Assembly: GCF_014643535.1 (NCBI RefSeq)
Contig: NZ_BMJQ01000002.1
Coordinates: 248,001-312,000, forward strand
DNA from: Aliidongia dinghuensis
GTDB lineage: Bacteria > Pseudomonadota > Alphaproteobacteria > ATCC43930 > CGMCC-115725
Direction of reading: 5' to 3'
Length of the DNA stretch: 64,000 nt
Below are positions 37,025-56,783 of this stretch, piece by piece. The position numbers and the translations under genes were made by a program. Each line of letters opens with the position of its first letter. Positions within the stretch are counted from its first letter, which is position 1. The notes below the pieces were generated by a model. That model was not told where the DNA came from and did not search any database. It worked only from the letters and a program-made list of their open reading frames with translations.

Positions 37025-37030
37025 TAGTAT
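37025..37030 (+). promoter_or_regulatory. Possible -10 box ahead of the cobalamin riboswitch
   Basis: TAGTAT lies about 7 bases before the first riboswitch stem, so the predicted transcript would begin with the aptamer. The -35 (CTTCCC, 37001-37006) is poor. Confidence 0.35.
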
Positions 37031-37034
37031 GCGG

Positions 37035-37222
37035 CCTCCGACGGTTCCCCTCGGGGATCAAAAGGGAACGCGGGCCCGACGTCCTGACGGACGTTCGTAA
37101 GCCGCGGCTGCCCCCGCAACTGTAAGCGACGAGCCAGCATCGACGATGCGCCACTGGGCCTCGAAGGCCCGGGAAGGCCGATGCGACGGCGCCGACCCGC
37201 GAGCCAGGAGACCTGCCGTCGG
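37035..37222 (+). ncRNA. Cobalamin riboswitch
   Basis: All conserved blocks of the adenosylcobalamin aptamer are present in order: GGTTCCC...GGGGATCAAAAGGGAA near 37043, GCTGCCCCCGCAACTGTAAG at 37107-37126, GCCACTGGG...GGGAAGGC near 37147-37179, and the B12 box AGCCAGGAGACCTGCCG at 37202-37218. It lies about 110 bp upstream of cobW and should turn the cobW-cobN-cobO-cobL-cobE-cobM operon down when cobalamin is plentiful. The expression platform is not obvious. A GC-rich hairpin near the GTG of cobW could block translation. Confidence 0.95.
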
Positions 37223-37330
37223 AACGCGCCAAAGCGGCAACGACGGGCGGGGTGCACCGGCGGGATGGTCTCGGGACTTGAGCGGGATCGGCCTTTTGCA
37301 CGCGATGGCGAACGGTGGAGTTCGACGAGC

Positions 37331-48431: not shown

Positions 48432-49066
48432 TCCGCCTCGCTCGCGAGCGCGTTGACGGCGGCCGAGGTGATGGCACTGCCGCCGCGCCGGCCGAGGATG
48501 GTGATGAACGGCACGCCGCGGCTGTCGGCCTGGAGCGCCGCCTTCGACTCGGCGGCGCCGACGAAGCCCACGGGCAGGCCCAGGATCAGCGCCGGCCTCG
48601 GCGCCCCGGCATCGATCATGTCGAGCAGATGGAAGAGCGCCGTCGGCGCATTGCCGATCGCGACGACAGCGCCTTGCAGCCGGTCGCGCCAGAGTTCGAG
48701 TGCTGCGGCGCTGCGCGTGGTCGCGAGCTTCGCCGCCAGATCCGGCACCTCCGGCGCGTTCAGCGTGCAGATCACCTCGTTCTGGGCGGGCAGGCGCGCG
48801 CGCGTGATGCCGGCCGCGACCATGGCGGCATCGCACAGGATCGGCGCGCCGGCGAGCAGTGCCGCGCGTCCGGCCTCGGCGGCACCCGGTGCGGCGGCGA
48901 GATCGCGCGGCAGGTCGGTCATGCCGCACGCATGGATCATGCGCACCACCGTGCGCGCGAGGTCGGGCGAGAGGCCGGAGAGATCGGCCTCGGCCCGGAT
49001 GATGGCGAAGGACCGGCGGTAGATCTCGGCGCCGTCGGTCAGGTAGTCGCGGGAATCCAAGGTCAC
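48428..49066 (-). CDS. cobH: Precorrin-8X methylmutase
   Basis: 212 residues. YLTDGAEIYRRSFAIIRAEA is the N-terminal signature. The catalytic His is in MIHACGMTD, and the later region ALILGLPVGFVGAAESKAAL is typical. It moves the C11 methyl to C12 to give hydrogenobyrinate. The GTG start lies within the cobG stop (GTGA). Confidence 0.96.
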   Translation of the reverse strand: MTLDSRDYLTDGAEIYRRSFAIIRAEADLSGLSPDLARTVVRMIHACGMTDLPRDLAAAPGAAEAGRAALLAGAPILCDAAMVAAGITRARLPAQNEVICTLNAPEVPDLAAKLATTRSAAALELWRDRLQGAVVAIGNAPTALFHLLDMIDAGAPRPALILGLPVGFVGAAESKAALQADSRGVPFITILGRRGGSAITSAAVNALASEAE

Positions 49067-50358
49067 GGCGTTTGAAGCGCTTTCGTGCGGTAGGCGGTGC
49101 GGGCGGCGGCGAGCGCCTCGTCCGGCGCGAGGCCAGTCAGGGCGACAACGCCGTCGAATAGCACATCATAGCCGTTTTGGGTCGCAATCAGATCGACCAC
49201 GGCTGGCCCGCGCATGGCGCAGCGCTTGGCGCAGCCGGCGACATGCATCGCCCAGCCGGCAGTCGGGGCGGTGCTGGCGACGCTCTCGGCGAACCGGCGC
49301 GCATCGTGGCGCACGTCGCCGAGCGCTGCGGCACAGCCCGCACTGCCGGCGCAGGCGGCGAGGCCGGCGAAGCCGTCGCGGCCGTCGAGTGATAGGCCAA
49401 GGGAGGCGAGCGTCGCCGTGAGCGCGGGCAGGTCCCCGGCCGCAACGCCGCGCAGCGCGAGATTGCGCCAGGGCGTGAGCCGCATGTCGAAGCCGAACTG
49501 CCGGGCGGCATCCGCGAGCGCCAAAGCCTGCGCGCTGGAGAGGCGGCCCAACGGCACGACCGGCAGCAGCGTGCCGGCGACGATGCCGAAGCCGGGTGCT
49601 GATTGACGCGGTGCCGGCACGGAACAGGATTTCGCCGCCAGGCCGGTGCGGAATTCGTCATAGGCCGCCGGCACCCGGCCGATCGACCGCCCGCGCGCCG
49701 GCAGATCATGGCTCTGCGCCACCACGAGGGTCGCATGTGCCGCGCGGATCAGCAGCGCTACCGCCGCGTCGGGTGCCGTGCCGAGGCCGGTCGGCTGCCC
49801 GGCAAGGCTCAGGTGCAGCCGGTCGGGCGCCACGGCCGTCAGCGTCAGGTCGGCGCCGCCCGGATCGAAGCCGAGCCCGCCGCCGTCGAGCGTGAAGGCG
49901 AATTTCGCGGGCAGTTGCGCGAGCGCGGCGTCGGCAATCAGCGCCCGGTCCAGCGCTTGGGCGAGCCCCGTCAGGTCGATGTGCTCGTCCGGATCAACGC
50001 CGGCGAACGGGCTCACCAGGATGTTGCGGATGCGCTCGTGGCTCGCCGAGGGCAGCAGCCCGGCGCGCGCGAGTCCCTCAGTCATCGGTTTGAGCTGCGC
50101 CGGCCCGATCCCGCGCAGCTGGATGTTGGCGCGCGCAGTCAGGTCCAGGTGCCCGTCGCCGTGGCGGGCGGCAAGCTCGGCGATCGCTGCGAGCGTCGCG
50201 GGCGGCAGCACGCCGCCGGGCAGGCGCAGGCGCATCAGCATGCCGTCCTTCGCCGGCACCGCATGGAGGATGCCCGGGCAGAAGTCGGTGAGCGCCTGGG
50301 GATCGCCGGCGGCGGGCTCGCGGTGAGGCAAGGGGCGCGTCATGGTGCGCTCGATCAT
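49063..50358 (-). CDS. cobG: Precorrin-3B synthase
   Basis: 431 residues of the nitrite/sulfite reductase-like class. LPGGVLPPATLAAIAELAAR and LTARANIQLRGI belong to the ferredoxin-like half-domain. The [4Fe-4S] Cys residues are in LAACAGSAGCAAALGD and HVAGCAKRCAMRGP. CobG uses oxygen to hydroxylate C20 and form the lactone, so its presence marks the oxygen-dependent pathway. The start at 50358 has a GGGGCGAG site; ATG 50343 is also possible. It is divergent from cobB. Confidence 0.9.
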   Translation of the reverse strand: MIERTMTRPLPHREPAAGDPQALTDFCPGILHAVPAKDGMLMRLRLPGGVLPPATLAAIAELAARHGDGHLDLTARANIQLRGIGPAQLKPMTEGLARAGLLPSASHERIRNILVSPFAGVDPDEHIDLTGLAQALDRALIADAALAQLPAKFAFTLDGGGLGFDPGGADLTLTAVAPDRLHLSLAGQPTGLGTAPDAAVALLIRAAHATLVVAQSHDLPARGRSIGRVPAAYDEFRTGLAAKSCSVPAPRQSAPGFGIVAGTLLPVVPLGRLSSAQALALADAARQFGFDMRLTPWRNLALRGVAAGDLPALTATLASLGLSLDGRDGFAGLAACAGSAGCAAALGDVRHDARRFAESVASTAPTAGWAMHVAGCAKRCAMRGPAVVDLIATQNGYDVLFDGVVALTGLAPDEALAAARTAYRTKALQTP

Positions 50359-50374
50359 ACGGGCTCGCCCCAAT

Positions 50375-50413
50375 GGCGCAACGATGGTGGCGCAACGATG
50401 GCGGCGCAATGAT
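50375..50413. repeat. Three 14-bp-spaced direct repeats in the cobG/cobB promoter region
   Basis: GGCGCAACGAT at 50375 and 50389 and GGCGCAATGAT at 50403 recur every 14 bp between the divergent starts of cobG and cobB. They look like iteron-style binding sites or a small slippage expansion. The regulator is unknown. Confidence 0.5.
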
Positions 50414-50481
50414 CGCGCGACGCTCCGAGCGCCGTCGTTTCCCGTCGCCATCGGCCGATCGCTCGACTAGGGTCGGCCATC

Positions 50482-51768
50482 ATGACCCGCGCCCTCGTCA
50501 TCGCCGCTCCCGCGTCCGGCTCCGGCAAGACCATGGTGACGCTCGGCCTGCTCAGGGCGTTCCGCCGCCGCGGCGTCGCCGTCGGCTCGGCCAAGGTCGG
50601 GCCGGACTATATCGACCCGGCGTTCCATGCCGCGGCGAGCGGCCGGCCGTGCCGCAATCTCGATCCCTGGGCGATGCGACCGGAGACGTTGCGCCATGCG
50701 CTGGCATGCGCGGCCGAGGGCACCGACCTGCTGCTGGTCGAGGGCGTCATGGGCCTGTTCGACGGGGCGGCCGATGGCGGCGGCTCGACCGCCGACCTGG
50801 CGGCGCTCACCGGGCTGCCGGTGGCGCTGGTGCTCGACGTGCGCGGCCAGACCGTCTCGGCAGCGGCGACCGCCCAGGGCTTCGCGCGGTTTCGCGACGA
50901 CGTGACGGTCGCGGCCGCGATCCTCAACCGGGTCGGCTCGGCCCGGCACGCCGACCTCATTCGCCCGGCGTTCGACCAACTCGGCCTGCCCGTGCTGGGG
51001 GCACTTGCCCGCGCCGACGGCATCGCCGTGCCGTCGCGTCATCTGGGGCTGGTCCAGGCGGGCGAGCAGGCCGATCTCGAAGGCTTCCTCGAGCGCGCGG
51101 CCGACCTGCTCGAGGGGGCGATCGATCTCGACCGGCTCGCCGCCTGCGCCCGGCCGATCGCGCCCGGCGGTGCCGCGGCCGTGGCGTTGCCGCCGCTGGG
51201 CAGACGGATCGCTGTTGCGCGCGACATCGCCTTTGCCTTTGCCTATCCGCATGTGCTCGACGGCTGGCGCGCTGCGGGGGTCGAACTCGACTTCTTCTCG
51301 CCGCTCGCCGACGAGGCGCCGCCGGGCGACGCCGACGCGGTCTATCTGCCGGGCGGCTATCCGGAGCTGCACGCCGGCCGGCTCGCTGCCGCCGCGGAAT
51401 TCCGGCGCGGCATGCTGGCCGCCGCGGCGCGCGGTGCCGCGATTTATGGCGAGTGCGGCGGCTACATGGCCTTGGGCGACGGCCTCATCGATGGCGACGG
51501 CGTGCGCCATGCCATGCTCGGGCTGCTGCCGGTCGAGACCTCGTTCGCGGTGCCGCGCCGGCAATTGGGTTATCGCCGCATCATGGCTGCGGCCGAAACG
51601 CCGCTTGGGCCGGCGGGCCGCTGCTTTCGTGGGCACGAGTTCCACTTCGCGCGCGAGACCGGCCGGGGCGCCGTGCCCACCCTGTTCGAGACCGAGGGCC
51701 ATGGTGCCTACGGTGCGCTACTGGGGCGCGTGTTCGGCTCCTTCCTGCACCTGATCGACCAGGCCTGA
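50482..51768 (+). CDS. cobB: Cobyrinate / hydrogenobyrinate a,c-diamide synthase
   Basis: 428 residues. The N-terminal P-loop-like ATPase domain starts IAAPASGSGKTMVTLGLLRA. The C-terminal class I glutamine amidotransferase domain has AIYGECGGYMALGDGL with the nucleophile Cys and a conserved GHEFHFAR. It amidates the a and c side chains using glutamine and ATP, giving the substrate of CobN. It stands alone on the plus strand, with nasT starting 37 bp after its stop. Confidence 0.95.
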   Translation: MTRALVIAAPASGSGKTMVTLGLLRAFRRRGVAVGSAKVGPDYIDPAFHAAASGRPCRNLDPWAMRPETLRHALACAAEGTDLLLVEGVMGLFDGAADGGGSTADLAALTGLPVALVLDVRGQTVSAAATAQGFARFRDDVTVAAAILNRVGSARHADLIRPAFDQLGLPVLGALARADGIAVPSRHLGLVQAGEQADLEGFLERAADLLEGAIDLDRLAACARPIAPGGAAAVALPPLGRRIAVARDIAFAFAYPHVLDGWRAAGVELDFFSPLADEAPPGDADAVYLPGGYPELHAGRLAAAAEFRRGMLAAAARGAAIYGECGGYMALGDGLIDGDGVRHAMLGLLPVETSFAVPRRQLGYRRIMAAAETPLGPAGRCFRGHEFHFARETGRGAVPTLFETEGHGAYGALLGRVFGSFLHLIDQA

Positions 51769-51805: not shown

Positions 51806-52408
51806 ATGAGGGTCCTGCTCGCCGACGCCAATCTCGATCGCGCCGCTTCCGTTGCCGACCATCTGGCCGGCTCCGGCGCGGTCGACGTGCTGCGTCTCGA
51901 TGCCGGCGAAAGCCTGGCCCAGGCGGTGGCCCGGCACCGGCCGGACGTGGTGATTGTCGACATGGCGCGGCCCGACCGCGACCAGCTCGATTCGATCCGC
52001 GAGGTCGCCTCGCGCCATCCGAGCCCGATCGTGCTGTTCGTCGATCGCAACGATCCCGCCTTCATGGAGGCAGCGATCGAGGCCGGCGTCAGTTCCTACA
52101 ATGTCGTCGGCACGGCGCTGCCGGACGTGAAGCCGATCGTCGAGGCGGCGGTCGTGATGTTCCGCCGCTACCGGCAGGTCGAGGAAGAACTCAGGAAAGC
52201 CGAGGCCTCGCTCAAGGAACGGGTGCTGATCGACCGCGCCAAGGCCAAGCTCATGCAGGAGCGGCGGCTGAGCGAGCCCGACGCCTATGGCTGGCTCCGC
52301 CGCCAGGCGATGGACCGCGGCCGGCGTATTGCCGACATCGCGGCGGACGTGCTCGACGGCAGCCTCGCCCCGACCAAGGAAAGGAGAGGAGCCAATGGCG
52401 CCCGCTGA
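51806..52408 (+). CDS. nasT: ANTAR-domain response regulator NasT
   Basis: 200 residues. The N-terminal receiver-like domain is about 1-120, with Asp53 in VVIVDMARP. A coiled-coil helix follows, and the ANTAR domain at about 130-190 reads ERVLIDRAKAKLMQERRLSE and AYGWLRRQAMDRGRRIADIA. ANTAR proteins bind paired RNA hairpins and allow transcription past a leader terminator. NasT is held inactive by NasS until nitrate is present. The likely target is the narK leader 3.6 kb away. ATG 51806 begins the family N-terminus MRVLLAD; a TTG at 51788 is less likely. Confidence 0.94.
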   Translation: MRVLLADANLDRAASVADHLAGSGAVDVLRLDAGESLAQAVARHRPDVVIVDMARPDRDQLDSIREVASRHPSPIVLFVDRNDPAFMEAAIEAGVSSYNVVGTALPDVKPIVEAAVVMFRRYRQVEEELRKAEASLKERVLIDRAKAKLMQERRLSEPDAYGWLRRQAMDRGRRIADIAADVLDGSLAPTKERRGANGAR

Positions 52409-53459
52409 GCGCATCCGTATCGGCCTGGTGCGGCTGACCGACATGGCACCGGCCTTCGTGGCCGAGGCCAAGGGGTTCTTCGTGGCCGAAGGGGTCGAGG
52501 CGGAGCTGTCGATCGAGCCGTCCTGGGCCAATATCGCCGACAAGCTCACCTATCGGGCACTCGACGCCGCGGTCATGCTGCCGCCGCTCGCCTTCGCCGT
52601 GGCGCTGGGCCTGCGCGGCGCCGGGGCACCCTTGTTCGTGCCGCTGTCGATCAGCCAGAACGGCAACGCCTTCACCGTGTCGCCGGCGCTCGCCGCGGCG
52701 ATCGGGCCGGGTCCGGCGGATGCGGCGTCGCTCGGGCACCGGCTCGCCGATGTCGTCCGGGTGCGGGGGGCGGGCGCTGCGCGCCTGCGCTTTGCCGTTG
52801 TCCATGCCTATTCCTCGCACGACCTGCTGCTGCGCTACTGGCTGGCCGCGTCGGGCCTCGATCCGGCGGAGGCGGTCGAGCTGGTCGCCGTGCCGCCGGT
52901 CGACATGGTCGCAGCGCTTGCGGCGGGCGAGATCGATGGGTTCTGCGCTGGCGCGCCCTGGGGCGCCGTCGCGACCGCCGAGGGCGTCGGTCGCACGATC
53001 CTGCGCAGCTCGGCGATCTGGCGGAACCACCCGGAGAAGTGCCTCGGTGTCACGACCGATTGGGCTGAGCGCCATCCGGCGGGCCTGGCCGCCGTGCTGC
53101 GTGCGCTCATCCGCGCCCAGCGCTTCTGCGACGTGCCAGCCAATGCCGACGAGGTCGCGCTGATGCTGGCGGCACCCGGACGGATGGGTGTGCCGGCCGC
53201 GGCACTTCAAGCCTCTCTGCCGGGCGCGGCACCGGGTGGCGGCGTCGATGTCTCGCGCTTCTTCGCCGGCGGAGCGGCCGCCCCGCGCCTCAGCCATGCC
53301 GCTTGGTTCCTCGACCAGATGGCGCGCTGGGGTCGGTTCGGCGCGGAGGTCGACCGGGCCGCCGTCGCGCGCGCCGTCTATCGGCCGGACCTCTACGAAC
53401 GGGCGGCGGGCGAACCGGTCGAGCTGGCCGTGCCCGACCGGCTGTTCGACCAGCCGTGA
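52395..53459 (+). CDS. nasS: Nitrate/nitrite sensor protein NasS
   Basis: 354 residues of the NrtA/CmpA substrate-binding family, but with no signal peptide, as expected of cytoplasmic NasS. IRIGLVRLTDMAPAFVAEAK opens the fold, and FCAGAPWGAVATAEGVGRTI and WRNHPEKCLGVTTDWAERHP are typical of nitrate-binding members. It binds nitrate and releases NasT. The start has AAGGAGAGGA before it and overlaps nasT by 14 bp. Confidence 0.94.
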   Translation: MAPAERIRIGLVRLTDMAPAFVAEAKGFFVAEGVEAELSIEPSWANIADKLTYRALDAAVMLPPLAFAVALGLRGAGAPLFVPLSISQNGNAFTVSPALAAAIGPGPADAASLGHRLADVVRVRGAGAARLRFAVVHAYSSHDLLLRYWLAASGLDPAEAVELVAVPPVDMVAALAAGEIDGFCAGAPWGAVATAEGVGRTILRSSAIWRNHPEKCLGVTTDWAERHPAGLAAVLRALIRAQRFCDVPANADEVALMLAAPGRMGVPAAALQASLPGAAPGGGVDVSRFFAGGAAAPRLSHAAWFLDQMARWGRFGAEVDRAAVARAVYRPDLYERAAGEPVELAVPDRLFDQP

Positions 53460-53460
53460 G

Positions 53461-55182
53461 TCAGCGAAGGCGCAGCGCCGCCAGAAGCAGCAGGAACAGC
53501 ACCGCCGAGACTGCCTGCCAGACGCGGACCGGGTTGCGCTCGTAGAGCGAGCGGCGGCGCGGCGTGGGCGGGCGCTGGCGGCCCTGGCCCTGCTCCAATT
53601 CGAGGGCGAGTTCGAGTGCGTCGCTGAGGCGCTGCGCTGGATCGACCGCGAGGCAGCGGGCCAGAAGCTCGTCGAGCCAGGGCGGCAGGTCCGGGCGATG
53701 GCGTGCCAGCGGCTGCGGCCGGCCGAAGCGCGGATGGGAAAACGGCTCGATCTCGCCATAGGGATAGGCGCCGCCGCTGAACAGCCGGTAGATCGTGACG
53801 CCCAAGGCGAAGAGATCGCTCCGCTCGCTGCCGACGCTGCCAGCGAACTGCTCGGGAGCCATGTAGCTGGCCGTGCCCGGGATGTCAGCGGTTGGAAAGT
53901 CAGGCAGATGCGGCAGGTAGGCGACGCCGAGATCGATCAGCTTGAGCCCGCCGCTTGGTTCCAGGATGACGTTGTCCGGCTTGATGTCGCGATGGACGAT
54001 GCCGGCACGGTGCAAGGCGGCCACCGCCTTGGCGAGCTTGCTGGCGATGGCGAGCCCCTCGCCGAGGCCGATCGCGGGCAGGCGGGCAAGCCGACGCTCC
54101 AGGCTCTCGCCATCATAGAACGGCATGACCGAATAGAGCCGGGTCCGGCGGTCGGGCGGCGGCTCGATCACTTCGCCGACCCAGGGGCTGCGGACCCGGG
54201 CCGCGACCCAGGTCTCGCGCAGGAAGGCGAGCCGGAACGAGGCGTCCTCGGCAATGCGCGGCTTCGGGAACTTGAGGGCGACCGGCCGGCCATCCGTCTC
54301 GTCGACCGAGCGGAAGAGGCGGCTGTACCGGCCGTCGGCGAGCACGGTGCCGATCGTGTAGCCGTCGATCCGCTCGCCCGGGCGTGGCGGGTCCAGGATC
54401 GGCAGGGCGGCGATCGCCAGCTCCAGCTCCGTCGTGTCGGCCGGCGGCAGCGCCAGGATCTCGAGTACGATGGCGCTGGCATTGTCCTGCGAGCCGGCGG
54501 CGAGTGCGGCTGCGACCAGCGCATCGGCCGCGGCGTCGGGTGTCGCCGCCGCGGCCAGGATCTCGGCGATGTGCCGGTCGTCGAGGCTGCCATGGACGCC
54601 GTCGGTCGCGATCAGGTAGCGGTCGTCGGCGCGCGCGGTCTCGACGGCATAGTCGGCGCGCACGCCCTCTTCACCGCCGACCGAGCGCAGCAGTACATGC
54701 TGCTGGTCGGGCCGGGGCGAGACATGATCGACCGTGAGGCGGGCGAGCCGCCCGGTGCGCAGCCGGTAGATCCGCGTGTCGCCGAGGGAGAGCCGGTGGA
54801 CCTGGCGGCCACGCAGGATGAGTACGGCGAGCGTCGTGCCCATGGCGTCGAGCGCCGGATCGCTCCGGCCCTGGGCATGAATCCAGCGATTGACCGCGTC
54901 GAGCGCCACGGCGGCGGCACGCCGCACGCCCAGCGTCTCGCTCTGGCCCAGATAGCCGTCGACGAAACCGCGCACCGCGAGCTCGGCCGCGACATGGCCG
55001 GCCTCGGCGCCGCCGATGCCGTCGGCCAAGGCGGCGAGTGCCCCCAGCCGCGCCCGCTGGTCCCGGTCGCCCAGCCAGATGCCGCCCCAATCCTCATTGC
55101 GCACCCGCCGTCCGCAGGCACTGGCGAAACCGGCCCGGAGGTCGAGCACGGCGCGTGGTGTGTCTAGAACGATCTGGCTCAT
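53461..55182 (-). CDS. PP2C phosphatase - Ser/Thr kinase fusion, tail-anchored
   Basis: 573 residues. Residues about 1-235 are a PP2C-type phosphatase (RVRNEDWGGIW; LADGIGGAEAG; GDTRIYRLR; ATDGVHGSL; GSQDNASAIVLEI). Residues about 265-530 are a Hanks kinase with HRDIKPDN near 396, DLG in place of DFG near 416 and GTASYMAPEQF. A hydrophobic segment near the C-terminus (VWQAVSAVLFLLLLAALRL) should anchor it with both enzymes in the cytoplasm. It lies between nasS and narK on the opposite strand. As I recall, similar proteins sit next to nitrate genes in pseudomonads. Substrates unknown. The ATG at 55182 begins the family-like part. Confidence 0.92.
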   Translation of the reverse strand: MSQIVLDTPRAVLDLRAGFASACGRRVRNEDWGGIWLGDRDQRARLGALAALADGIGGAEAGHVAAELAVRGFVDGYLGQSETLGVRRAAAVALDAVNRWIHAQGRSDPALDAMGTTLAVLILRGRQVHRLSLGDTRIYRLRTGRLARLTVDHVSPRPDQQHVLLRSVGGEEGVRADYAVETARADDRYLIATDGVHGSLDDRHIAEILAAAATPDAAADALVAAALAAGSQDNASAIVLEILALPPADTTELELAIAALPILDPPRPGERIDGYTIGTVLADGRYSRLFRSVDETDGRPVALKFPKPRIAEDASFRLAFLRETWVAARVRSPWVGEVIEPPPDRRTRLYSVMPFYDGESLERRLARLPAIGLGEGLAIASKLAKAVAALHRAGIVHRDIKPDNVILEPSGGLKLIDLGVAYLPHLPDFPTADIPGTASYMAPEQFAGSVGSERSDLFALGVTIYRLFSGGAYPYGEIEPFSHPRFGRPQPLARHRPDLPPWLDELLARCLAVDPAQRLSDALELALELEQGQGRQRPPTPRRRSLYERNPVRVWQAVSAVLFLLLLAALRLR

Positions 55183-55363: not shown

Positions 55364-55379
55364 TGGCCCGCTCTTTGCA
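55364..55379 (+). promoter_or_regulatory. Sigma-54 promoter of the nitrate assimilation operon
   Basis: TGGCCCGCTCTTTGCA differs from TGGCACG-N4-TTGCA at one base only and has exact GG-N10-GC spacing. The predicted transcript starts near 55390, leaving a leader of about 180 bases before the narK GTG. The leader carries two ANTAR-type hairpins. Confidence 0.75.
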
Positions 55380-55427
55380 GTGCAACATGGTGCCTGGTGA
55401 CGGCGCCTTTGCGCTCCCGGGCCGGAC

Positions 55428-55551
55428 GACCCTCAACGGCGAGGCCGTCTCGATTATCGGAACCCGGGCATCTGGCCGGTCAAGTTCCGCTTCCGCTTCA
55501 GCGGTGGATCAACGGCGATCCATCACCGGACGGATGGGCCTCAAGCCCATC
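55428..55551 (+). ncRNA. ANTAR-type RNA leader with two AACGGC hexaloop hairpins and a downstream hairpin
   Basis: Hairpin 1 (55428-55449): GAC-CCTC, loop AACGGC, GAGG, a 2-base bulge, then GTC. Hairpin 2 (55503-55524): an 8-bp stem with one G.U pair and the identical hexaloop AACGGC. Both loops have A at position 1 and G at position 4, the pattern bound by ANTAR domains. A third hairpin (55533-55551, GATGGGC / GCCCATC) follows. Its left arm region can pair instead with the right arm of hairpin 2 (CCATC with GATGG), giving a switch. There is no T-run after it, so termination may be factor-dependent or the effect translational. The 53-base gap between hairpins 1 and 2 is long. Confidence 0.72.
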
Positions 55552-55571
55552 GGTTCCGCCGGGAGAGTGCC

Positions 55572-56783
55572 GTGAAGACCAGTTTCCTCAAGGCCGGCCA
55601 CACGCCGTCGCTCATTGCCGCGTTCCTCTATTTCGACGTCAGCTTCATGGTCTGGGTGCTGATGGGGCCGCTCGCCGTGCAGATGGCGAAGGACCTGCAC
55701 CTCGACGCGGCTGAGAAGGGCCTGATGGTCGCGACCCCGGTGCTGGCCGGCGCCGTGCTGCGCGTCGTGAACGGTGTCGCGGTCGACTATCTGAAGCCGA
55801 AGCTCACCGGCCTCATCTGCCAGGCGATCGTCATCGCCGGGCTGCTCGCCGCCTGGTATTTCGGCATCCACAGCTACGGCCAGACCATGCTGGTCGGCAT
55901 CGTGCTGGGCCTGGCCGGCGCCTCCTTCGCGGTGGCACTGCCGCTGGCGTCGCGCTGGTATCCGCCGGAGCACCAGGGCATGGCGCTCGGCATCGCCGGT
56001 GCGGGGAACTCGGGCACGGTGTTCGCGGCCCTGTTCGCGCCCAGCCTCGCCGTTGCCTTCGGCTGGACCAATGTGTTCGGCCTGGTCGCGATCCCGCTCG
56101 CGATCGTGCTGGTGGCCTATTCCGTGCTCGCGAAGGATAGCCCGGAATGCCCGCCGCCGAAGTCGCTCGCTGCCTACTTCTCGGTGCTGAAGATCGGCGA
56201 CGCCTGGTGGTTCATGTTCTTCTACAGCGTCACGTTTGGCGGCTTCGTCGGCCTCGCTTCCTCGCTCAGCATCTATTTCAACGACCAGTACGGGCTCACG
56301 CCGGTCACCGCCGGCTATTGCACGGCGGCCTGCGTGTTCGCCGGCTCGCTGGTCCGGCCGATCGGCGGCGCCGTCGCCGACCGGATCGGCGGCATCCGGG
56401 CGCTCTCGGTCATGTACATGGTCGCGACATCCGCCTTCGCCGTCGTCAGCTTCGGCCTGCCGGCGGCCTGGATGGCGCTCGGCGTCTTCGTGCTCGGCAT
56501 GCTGGCGCTCGGCATGGGCAACGGGGCGGTGTTCCAGCTGGTGCCGCAGCGCTTCCGGCGCGAGATCGGCGTCATGACCGGCATCGTCGGCATGACCGGC
56601 GGCCTCGGCGGCTTCTATCTCGCGTCCAGCCTCGGCTACTCGAAGCAGCTGACCGGCAGCTACCAGACCGGCTTCCTGGTGTTCGCGGGCCTGGCGTTCG
56701 TCGCGCTTCTCGGCCTGACCGGCGTCAAGCGGCGGTGGCGGACGACCTGGGGTGCCGCCGGCCTCAGCGCCGCACGCGTCTAA
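55572..56783 (+). CDS. narK: Nitrate/nitrite transporter, MFS
   Basis: 403 residues with about 12 membrane segments. MFS nitrate porter features include FDVSFMVWVLMGPLAVQMAK near the N-terminus and GAGNSGTVFAALFAPSLA, a nitrate-signature-like glycine-rich helix in TM5. A second one, GMTGGLGGFYLASSLG, is in TM11. Imports nitrate for assimilation. The start is GTG, preceded by GGGAG. First gene of narK-nirB-nirD-nasC. Confidence 0.95.
   Translation: MKTSFLKAGHTPSLIAAFLYFDVSFMVWVLMGPLAVQMAKDLHLDAAEKGLMVATPVLAGAVLRVVNGVAVDYLKPKLTGLICQAIVIAGLLAAWYFGIHSYGQTMLVGIVLGLAGASFAVALPLASRWYPPEHQGMALGIAGAGNSGTVFAALFAPSLAVAFGWTNVFGLVAIPLAIVLVAYSVLAKDSPECPPPKSLAAYFSVLKIGDAWWFMFFYSVTFGGFVGLASSLSIYFNDQYGLTPVTAGYCTAACVFAGSLVRPIGGAVADRIGGIRALSVMYMVATSAFAVVSFGLPAAWMALGVFVLGMLALGMGNGAVFQLVPQRFRREIGVMTGIVGMTGGLGGFYLASSLGYSKQLTGSYQTGFLVFAGLAFVALLGLTGVKRRWRTTWGAAGLSAARV

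Follow-up and report, generated by a model that had tools for sequence, protein, structure and literature searches.

The closest described systems are given here as in the accessible portions of the papers cited. SELEX with NasR selects A at loop position 1, G at position 4 and a closing C-G pair (PMC7496416). The Paracoccus nasA leader is shifted in vitro by nitrate-activated NasS-NasT, with NasT in the shifted band (PMC3795266), and a Paracoccus mutant in the leader hairpin does not grow on nitrate (PMC5424462). For EutV systems, a linker of 14 nt instead of 5-12 nt drastically lowers induction (PMC3369931); an EutV leader with its linker extended by 20 nt shows no antitermination in vitro, and the EutV dimer has been proposed to occupy one hexaloop at a time, moving from P1 to P2 (PMC8934654). 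In the ANTAR model based on EutV, a dimer has to move from P1 to a P2 close by, and this P2 also forms part of a terminator. Bradyrhizobium has a NasT leader at nosR and predicted NasT hairpins at narK (PMC6759348). NalA, the leader of nirBD-PA1779-cobA in P. aeruginosa, which has a sigma-54 promoter, is described in PMC3973561 citing Romeo et al. 2012.

The leader of narK was analysed in a stretch of 64,000 nucleotides of the Aliidongia dinghuensis genome (the window; coordinates count from its first base). It is very probably a NasT-bound 5' leader of a nitrate assimilation operon, started by sigma-54, in which NasT freed by nitrate would act on two hairpins (P1 and P2) and so permit operon expression. 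Control by sigma-54 plus NasT is already known; new here are the spacing of the hairpins and the missing T-run terminator. In the accessible parts of the literature searched, mostly papers available without subscription, no account was found of NasT leaders that combine wide spacing with the lack of a terminator. The features are as follows.

51806-52408, plus strand: NasT, with receiver and ANTAR domains (Pfam Response_reg; ANTAR, 64.5 bits).
52395-53459, plus strand: nitrate sensor of the NasS type (Pfam NMT1_2, 256 bits).
55364-55379, plus strand: sigma-54 promoter with -24 and -12 boxes, element TGGCCCGCTCTTTGCA.
55424-55450, plus strand: ANTAR hairpin P1, loop AACGGC at 55435-55440, C-G closing pair, -10.3 kcal/mol when constrained.
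55458-55489, plus strand: linker hairpin CGGAAC...GTTCCG, predicted in two folds and absent from a third.
55503-55524, plus strand: ANTAR hairpin P2, loop AACGGC at 55511-55516, C-G closing pair, -11.8 kcal/mol when constrained.
55533-55551, plus strand: GC hairpin past P2, a candidate attenuator, arms GATGGGC and GCCCATC around CTCAA, without a T-run.
55560-55566, plus strand: likely Shine-Dalgarno sequence CGGGAGA (best duplex with the anti-Shine-Dalgarno, -7.4 kcal/mol, at -12).
55572-56783, plus strand: narK (MFS_1), GTG start, first gene of narK-nirB-nirD-nasC.

In the operon narK is followed by nirB, nirD (identified by eye from its open reading frame) and a molybdopterin reductase gene; narK homologues in alpha- and betaproteobacteria are about 69-78% identical. 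The sigma-54 consensus is TGGCAC-N5-TTGC, from which the narK promoter element differs by one mismatch (TGGCCC), with correct spacing. A sigma-54 promoter before narK had been claimed in the preliminary description, and it was borne out: the only match to TGGCMCGNNNNTTGCW in the 64-kb window is this element, against 0.01 expected. The sequence TGGCCCGC of the window promoter is also present in L158 (the same leader as L124) and L168. Genome-wide, the combination of a sigma-54 element with CAAYGGC 40-70 nt behind it was matched once, at the narK leader, and not at all in the control. Transcripts from sigma-54 promoters start about 12 bases past the -12 box; counted by this rule, the predicted narK leader is about 182 nt long. 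NtrC sites have the simple consensus TGCACC-N4-7-GGTGCA. Upstream of narK its best match was 8 of 12 positions, equalled in 159 of 200 shuffles. The divergent neighbour of narK encodes a PP2C phosphatase-kinase fusion (53461-55182, minus strand), and a PP2C phosphatase-kinase neighbour is annotated in Azospirillum thermophilum too (L168, 3874-5586).

NasT and NasS are encoded upstream, as had been stated. PF03861 has one match in the whole genome at E <= 0.001, in NasT, 3.6 kb upstream of the narK leader; as the sole ANTAR domain detected in the genome, NasT is the likely partner of the hairpins. The gene order is nasT-nasS, and the receiver-ANTAR protein adjoins an NrtA-like protein, as in NasS-NasT systems; we take the latter to be NasS from its position and family. 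With EutV chain 6wsh_A as reference and residue numbering matched by hand (offset 2), 7 of 11 RNA-contact residues of EutV are identical in NasT (R142, K149, E160, Y164, R168, M172 and R177); K147 is replaced by R, and K143, N173 and R175 differ. The genes beside NasT-NasS at 49063-51768 are presumably for cobalamin synthesis, and a cobalamin riboswitch (110.9 bits) lies at 37025-37234 on the plus strand.

The two ANTAR-type hairpins with the same AACGGC loop, also part of the preliminary description, were confirmed. Both read C-AACGGC-G, with A at position 1, G at position 4 and the closing C-G pair. They are separated by 52 nt, and their loops by 76 nt. Two A1/G4 hexaloop hairpins at -9 kcal/mol or below arose in 11 of 2000 dinucleotide shuffles of the 182-nt leader; the two loops were identical in none of the 2000, and in none did both hairpins combine an A at position 2 with closure by C-G. 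At -10.3 kcal/mol or below, such a pair arose in 1 of 2000 shuffles of a second set. Closely paired CAACGGCG (20-50 nt apart) gave 2 chance-like matches genome-wide, against 1 in the control.

A third hairpin had been described whose pairing with P2 would form a switch. The hairpin is present; the switch is not supported. Cross-pairing of CCATC with GATGG is possible, at -25.0 kcal/mol against -33.6 for P2 plus the third hairpin, and is thus costlier by about 8.6 kcal/mol. The 3' arm of P2 re-pairs downstream with a probability of 0.35 (0.37 in shuffles) and the longest T-run from P2 to the narK start is 2, so that P2 does not behave in the window as mutually exclusive with a terminator. A long-range pairing of CGGAACC with GGTTCCG (55458 with 55552) is just 2.0 kcal/mol worse than the free fold. 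Pairing of the Shine-Dalgarno sequence with the 5' end of the leader appeared in one fold and was absent from another with other ends; because the two disagree, it was given no weight.

Leaders of narK were collected from named genomes, from relatives found by genome search and from plasmid loci. The 89 leaders counted were 80 named-genome loci, the window and 8 relatives, and close relatives among them are not independent. A sigma-54 match within 330 nt was found for 43; the other 46 were dropped from the count. An AA-loop hairpin closed by C-G was present in 19 of the 25 sigma-54 leaders of at least 115 nt (a cut chosen after the distances were seen), where 0.35 were expected from shuffles, and two or more such hairpins in 9 of the 25 (0.0 expected). 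With 19 observed against 0.35, length alone does not explain the hairpins of the longer leaders. No such hairpin was found in the 18 narK leaders with a promoter within 110 nt of the start. Among the six exceptions in the longer class, L108, L121, L122 and L132 have an AG-loop and L114 an AC-loop at the same place, and L135 has no hexaloop hairpin at the corresponding place.

In narK leaders of Rhodocyclales and other betaproteobacteria (e.g. L078, L083, L095, L097, L123 and L128), the distance from the sigma-54 promoter to narK is either some 56-91 or some 139-148 nt. Their hexaloop hairpins are confined to the longer leaders, which mostly have a small hairpin before the start, without a T-run. 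The switch module of betaproteobacterial narK leaders looks as if gained or lost as a unit.

An alignment of narK leaders had been proposed as a check on the hairpins, and in it the stems of P1 and P2 covary across 13 leaders. These wide leaders, with outer hairpins at least 45 nt apart, were aligned on the loops without gaps: the window, L153, L155, L158, L160, L162, L085, L088, L147, L164, L173, L174 and L061. P1 is weak in L160 (-4.6), L173 and L174 are close relatives, no sigma-54 match reached the cut-off in L155, L173 or L174, and the first gene of L061 is only 25% identical to NarK. Left outside the set were L168 (30 nt apart), L175 (one hairpin), L131 (46 nt) and the ambiguous L169, and also L072, L076, L090, L135/L159, L154, L157 and L161, which lack a promoter-linked, C-G-closed AA-loop hairpin. 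In P1 and in P2 alike 86.8% of cells are paired, a share biased by the picking of leaders for having hairpins; two-sided changes, which are less biased, numbered 29 in P1 (10.7 shuffled) and 10 in P2 (3.1 shuffled). The covariation score was 0.817 for P1 (0.245 shuffled; slid partners at most 0.231) and 0.476 for P2 (0.312 shuffled; slid partners at most 0.229), and the 5' arm of P2 is also conserved in sequence. The C-AAnG-G loops are invariant in all 13; the scan required A1 and G4, not A2 or the C-G pair. Both hairpins are under selection in the leaders described, at distances far above the EutV limits.

A class-wide pattern search over 385 genomes matched at 47 places in 39 of them and, by our own reading of the table, at 13 in the control; most of these matches seem to be due to chance or to a single conserved coding sequence. 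Ten loci were examined (L181, L182, L186, L188, L189, L193, L195, L197, L202 and L206), and a downstream AA-loop hairpin was present in four: L182 (narK), L181, L186 and L195. By eye, the genes at L181 (genome G387) and L186 (G302) are NrtA-like and that at L195 encodes another transporter. In L181 and L186 a sigma-54 promoter is followed by hexaloop motifs spaced 38 and 24 nt and, beyond them, by a T-run, much as in the textbook form.

That form is taken by six alphaproteobacterial narK leaders (four from Sphingomonadales, one from Shinella and one from genome G054). Their P2 3' arm is the 5' arm of a strong terminator hairpin, and a T-run of 5-6 stands behind it. Re-pairing of the P2 arm averages 0.89 in these six against 0.60 in shuffles, with P2 positions set by eye (for L170, -85 was used and the loop is at -83). 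The 13 wide alphaproteobacterial leaders, the window included, have 45-76 nt between their outer loops and a longest T-run of 1-4 from P2 to the start; their P2 arm re-pairs at 0.64 against 0.57 shuffled, little above chance. Neighbouring hexaloops are 45-76 nt apart in 11 of the 13, the 76 nt of the window being the largest such distance in the sample; a third A1/G4 hairpin lies between the outer two in L085 and L088 (Nitrospirillum amazonense). The linkers are slightly more stably folded than their shuffles (mean z -0.95; window -1.02). Past P2, all 13 fold better than the average of their shuffles (mean z -1.9; window -1.58), and some structure is therefore kept there.

The preliminary description had singled out the long gap and the absent T-run as unusual. 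Both are real, and both recur in other narK leaders. Neighbouring loops in terminator leaders are 19 nt apart in L166, 35 in L171 and L176, 36 and 48 in L156, 38 and 56 in L172, and 71 in L170, or 32 and 39 there if an AG-loop hairpin in between is counted. In 15 of 16 betaproteobacterial leaders whose hairpins are single or in tight tandem, the longest T-run is 1-3 (5 in the other, L117), which rules out a missing terminator as a mark of wide leaders only. Paracoccus sp. AK26 (L165), Azospirillum (L168) and L131 lack a T-run as well. Long spacing and a missing T-run do not mark one clade.

In the mechanism proposed, the sigma-54 promoter would start the leader RNA, presumably under nitrogen limitation, and nitrate would free NasT from NasS, as is known in Paracoccus. 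NasT would then engage the hexaloop of P1 first and that of P2, 76 nt away, afterwards; the linker hairpin may bring the two closer. NasT on P1 and P2 would let expression of narK-nirB-nirD-nasC proceed. We infer both the binding of NasT to the narK leader and its response to nitrate. Against this mechanism speak the EutV limits on linker length, the missing T-run terminator behind P2, the lack of competition between P2 and the next hairpin, the search for an NtrC site, in which nothing exceeded shuffles, and narK of Bradyrhizobium, which has predicted NasT hairpins and yet unexpectedly rises in a nasT mutant under denitrification. The AND gate of nitrogen limitation and nitrate that had been suggested for this leader is plausible by the precedent of Klebsiella nasF/NasR and P. 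aeruginosa NalA.

A short linker of 5-12 nt, as in eut leaders, was not found in the window, where it is 52 nt. Under the EutV limits a 52-nt gap should therefore fail, unless NasT behaves differently or folding shortens the linker. The short-linker limit was established for EutV and not for NasT, and several other narK leaders, with or without terminators, exceed it. There are three possibilities: the linker hairpin could close the gap, NasT could tolerate it, or the two hairpins could serve a process other than a race against a T-run terminator. With wide spacing in 11 of 13 and no T-run above 4 in any of the 13, the wide leaders are a natural test of the relay model. Tentatively, and as something possible rather than probable, many narK leaders, including that of the window, may be NasT switches without an intrinsic T-run terminator, working partly across a long folded linker, in which a hand-over from P1 to P2 (in some leaders perhaps by way of a middle hexaloop) would relieve Rho-dependent termination or a translational block. 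If true, such switching would be a second way for an ANTAR protein to turn genes on. As the relieved step, we consider some other form of premature termination (dependent on Rho, or located at the hairpin past P2) somewhat more likely than translational control; non-standard termination is favoured because there is no T-run and no overlap of P2 with a terminator.

Ordinary NasT antitermination, in which hairpin 55533-55551 would terminate without a T-run and NasT on P2 would block that termination, is unlikely for the window, where P2 and this hairpin form together, cross-pairing has to pay its 8.6 kcal/mol and the longest T-run is 2. It gains from the six alphaproteobacterial leaders with textbook overlap and a T-run of 5-6, and from the 15 of 16 tight betaproteobacterial leaders without such a run; weak T-tracts may accordingly be normal in such GC-rich genomes. 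That T-runs are missing beyond the wide leaders, and that long spacing occurs with terminators, lowers the novel, terminator-free reading and raises this one.

We also think it improbable that control is translational, the hairpin past P2 masking the ribosome-binding region of narK and NasT on P1 and P2 altering access to it. The wide leaders have no long T-run, in several of them the end of the hairpin past P2 is no more than about 30 nt from the start codon, and in L155 and L162 the P2 3' arm re-pairs downstream above all 60 shuffles; translational control by ANTAR RNAs is reported from actinobacteria (PMC8164766), where those near start codons repress. Against this, P2 is 116-160 nt from the start in L088, L158 and L160, and forcing P1 and P2 to form, a static and therefore weak test, made the Shine-Dalgarno sequence more accessible in just two of the 13 leaders (L155 and L061), left its accessibility about unchanged in 9 (0.20 to 0.16 in the window) and lowered it in L085 and L147. 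Release of the Shine-Dalgarno sequence by P1 and P2 is thus unsupported. That P1 and P2 are evolutionary leftovers or have another binding partner, with narK controlled at the promoter only, is very unlikely in view of the two-sided covariation of both stems and the invariant loops, even though the 18 hairpin-free leaders with a start-proximal sigma-54 promoter mean that the operon can do without the switch and narK of Bradyrhizobium rises in a nasT mutant under denitrification (PMC6759348, accessible part).

An Rfam search of the whole window at the gathering score found the cobalamin riboswitch alone, and eleven narK loci searched in the same way gave no match in the leader. Part of RF03032 (narK RNA) is matched by P2 at 13.9 bits, far under its gathering score of 43.2. 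Over 146 relatives, RF03032 gave weak matches in 22 genomes, none above the cut-off, of which L029 and L030 alone were inspected. Its consensus begins GGCAC-N5-TTGC and has the loop AACGGC at position 38 and, outside the annotated structure, a second hairpin CGAC-AAAGAC-GUCG with its loop at position 62. The consensus of RF00625 (P11), filed in Rfam as type Gene, includes GGCAC-N5-TGC and three hexaloops (at 65, 88 and 106), of which the third overlaps the terminal hairpin. Judged by their consensus sequences, which join a sigma-54 promoter to two or three ANTAR hexaloop hairpins, narK RNA and P11 both resemble NasT leaders. The comparison of narK leaders would offer a function for both families. 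A P11-like stretch lies between nasT and nasS in L097 (7670-7809; 31.8 bits, gathering score 70), and L029 1501-1563 is listed with the narK RNA/P11 observation.

Compared with known systems, narK RNA shares with the window the sigma-54 element, the AACGGC hairpin and a second hexaloop hairpin, but its loops are 24 nt apart and not 76. The P11 consensus, which we presume may be the same RNA as NalA, likewise has hexaloop hairpins with one hairpin between the outer two; 41 nt separate its outer loops and an A1/G4 loop sits on its middle hairpin, whereas in the window the distance is 76 nt and the middle hairpin has no such loop. As far as the accessible descriptions of the next three systems go, NalA resembles the window in its sigma-54 promoter, its nitrate assimilation operon and its leader-based control (antitermination in NalA), and differs in having a terminator where the window lacks one with a T-run. 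The nasA leader of Paracoccus denitrificans has NasS-NasT and leader hairpins before nitrate assimilation genes in common with it; the operon layout is different, and hairpin HII is described as attenuating and not as a second NasT site. The EutV antiterminator of Enterococcus eut leaders also places A1/G4 hexaloops on two hairpins, but there the linker is 5-12 nt and P2 overlaps an intrinsic terminator, neither of which is true of the window.
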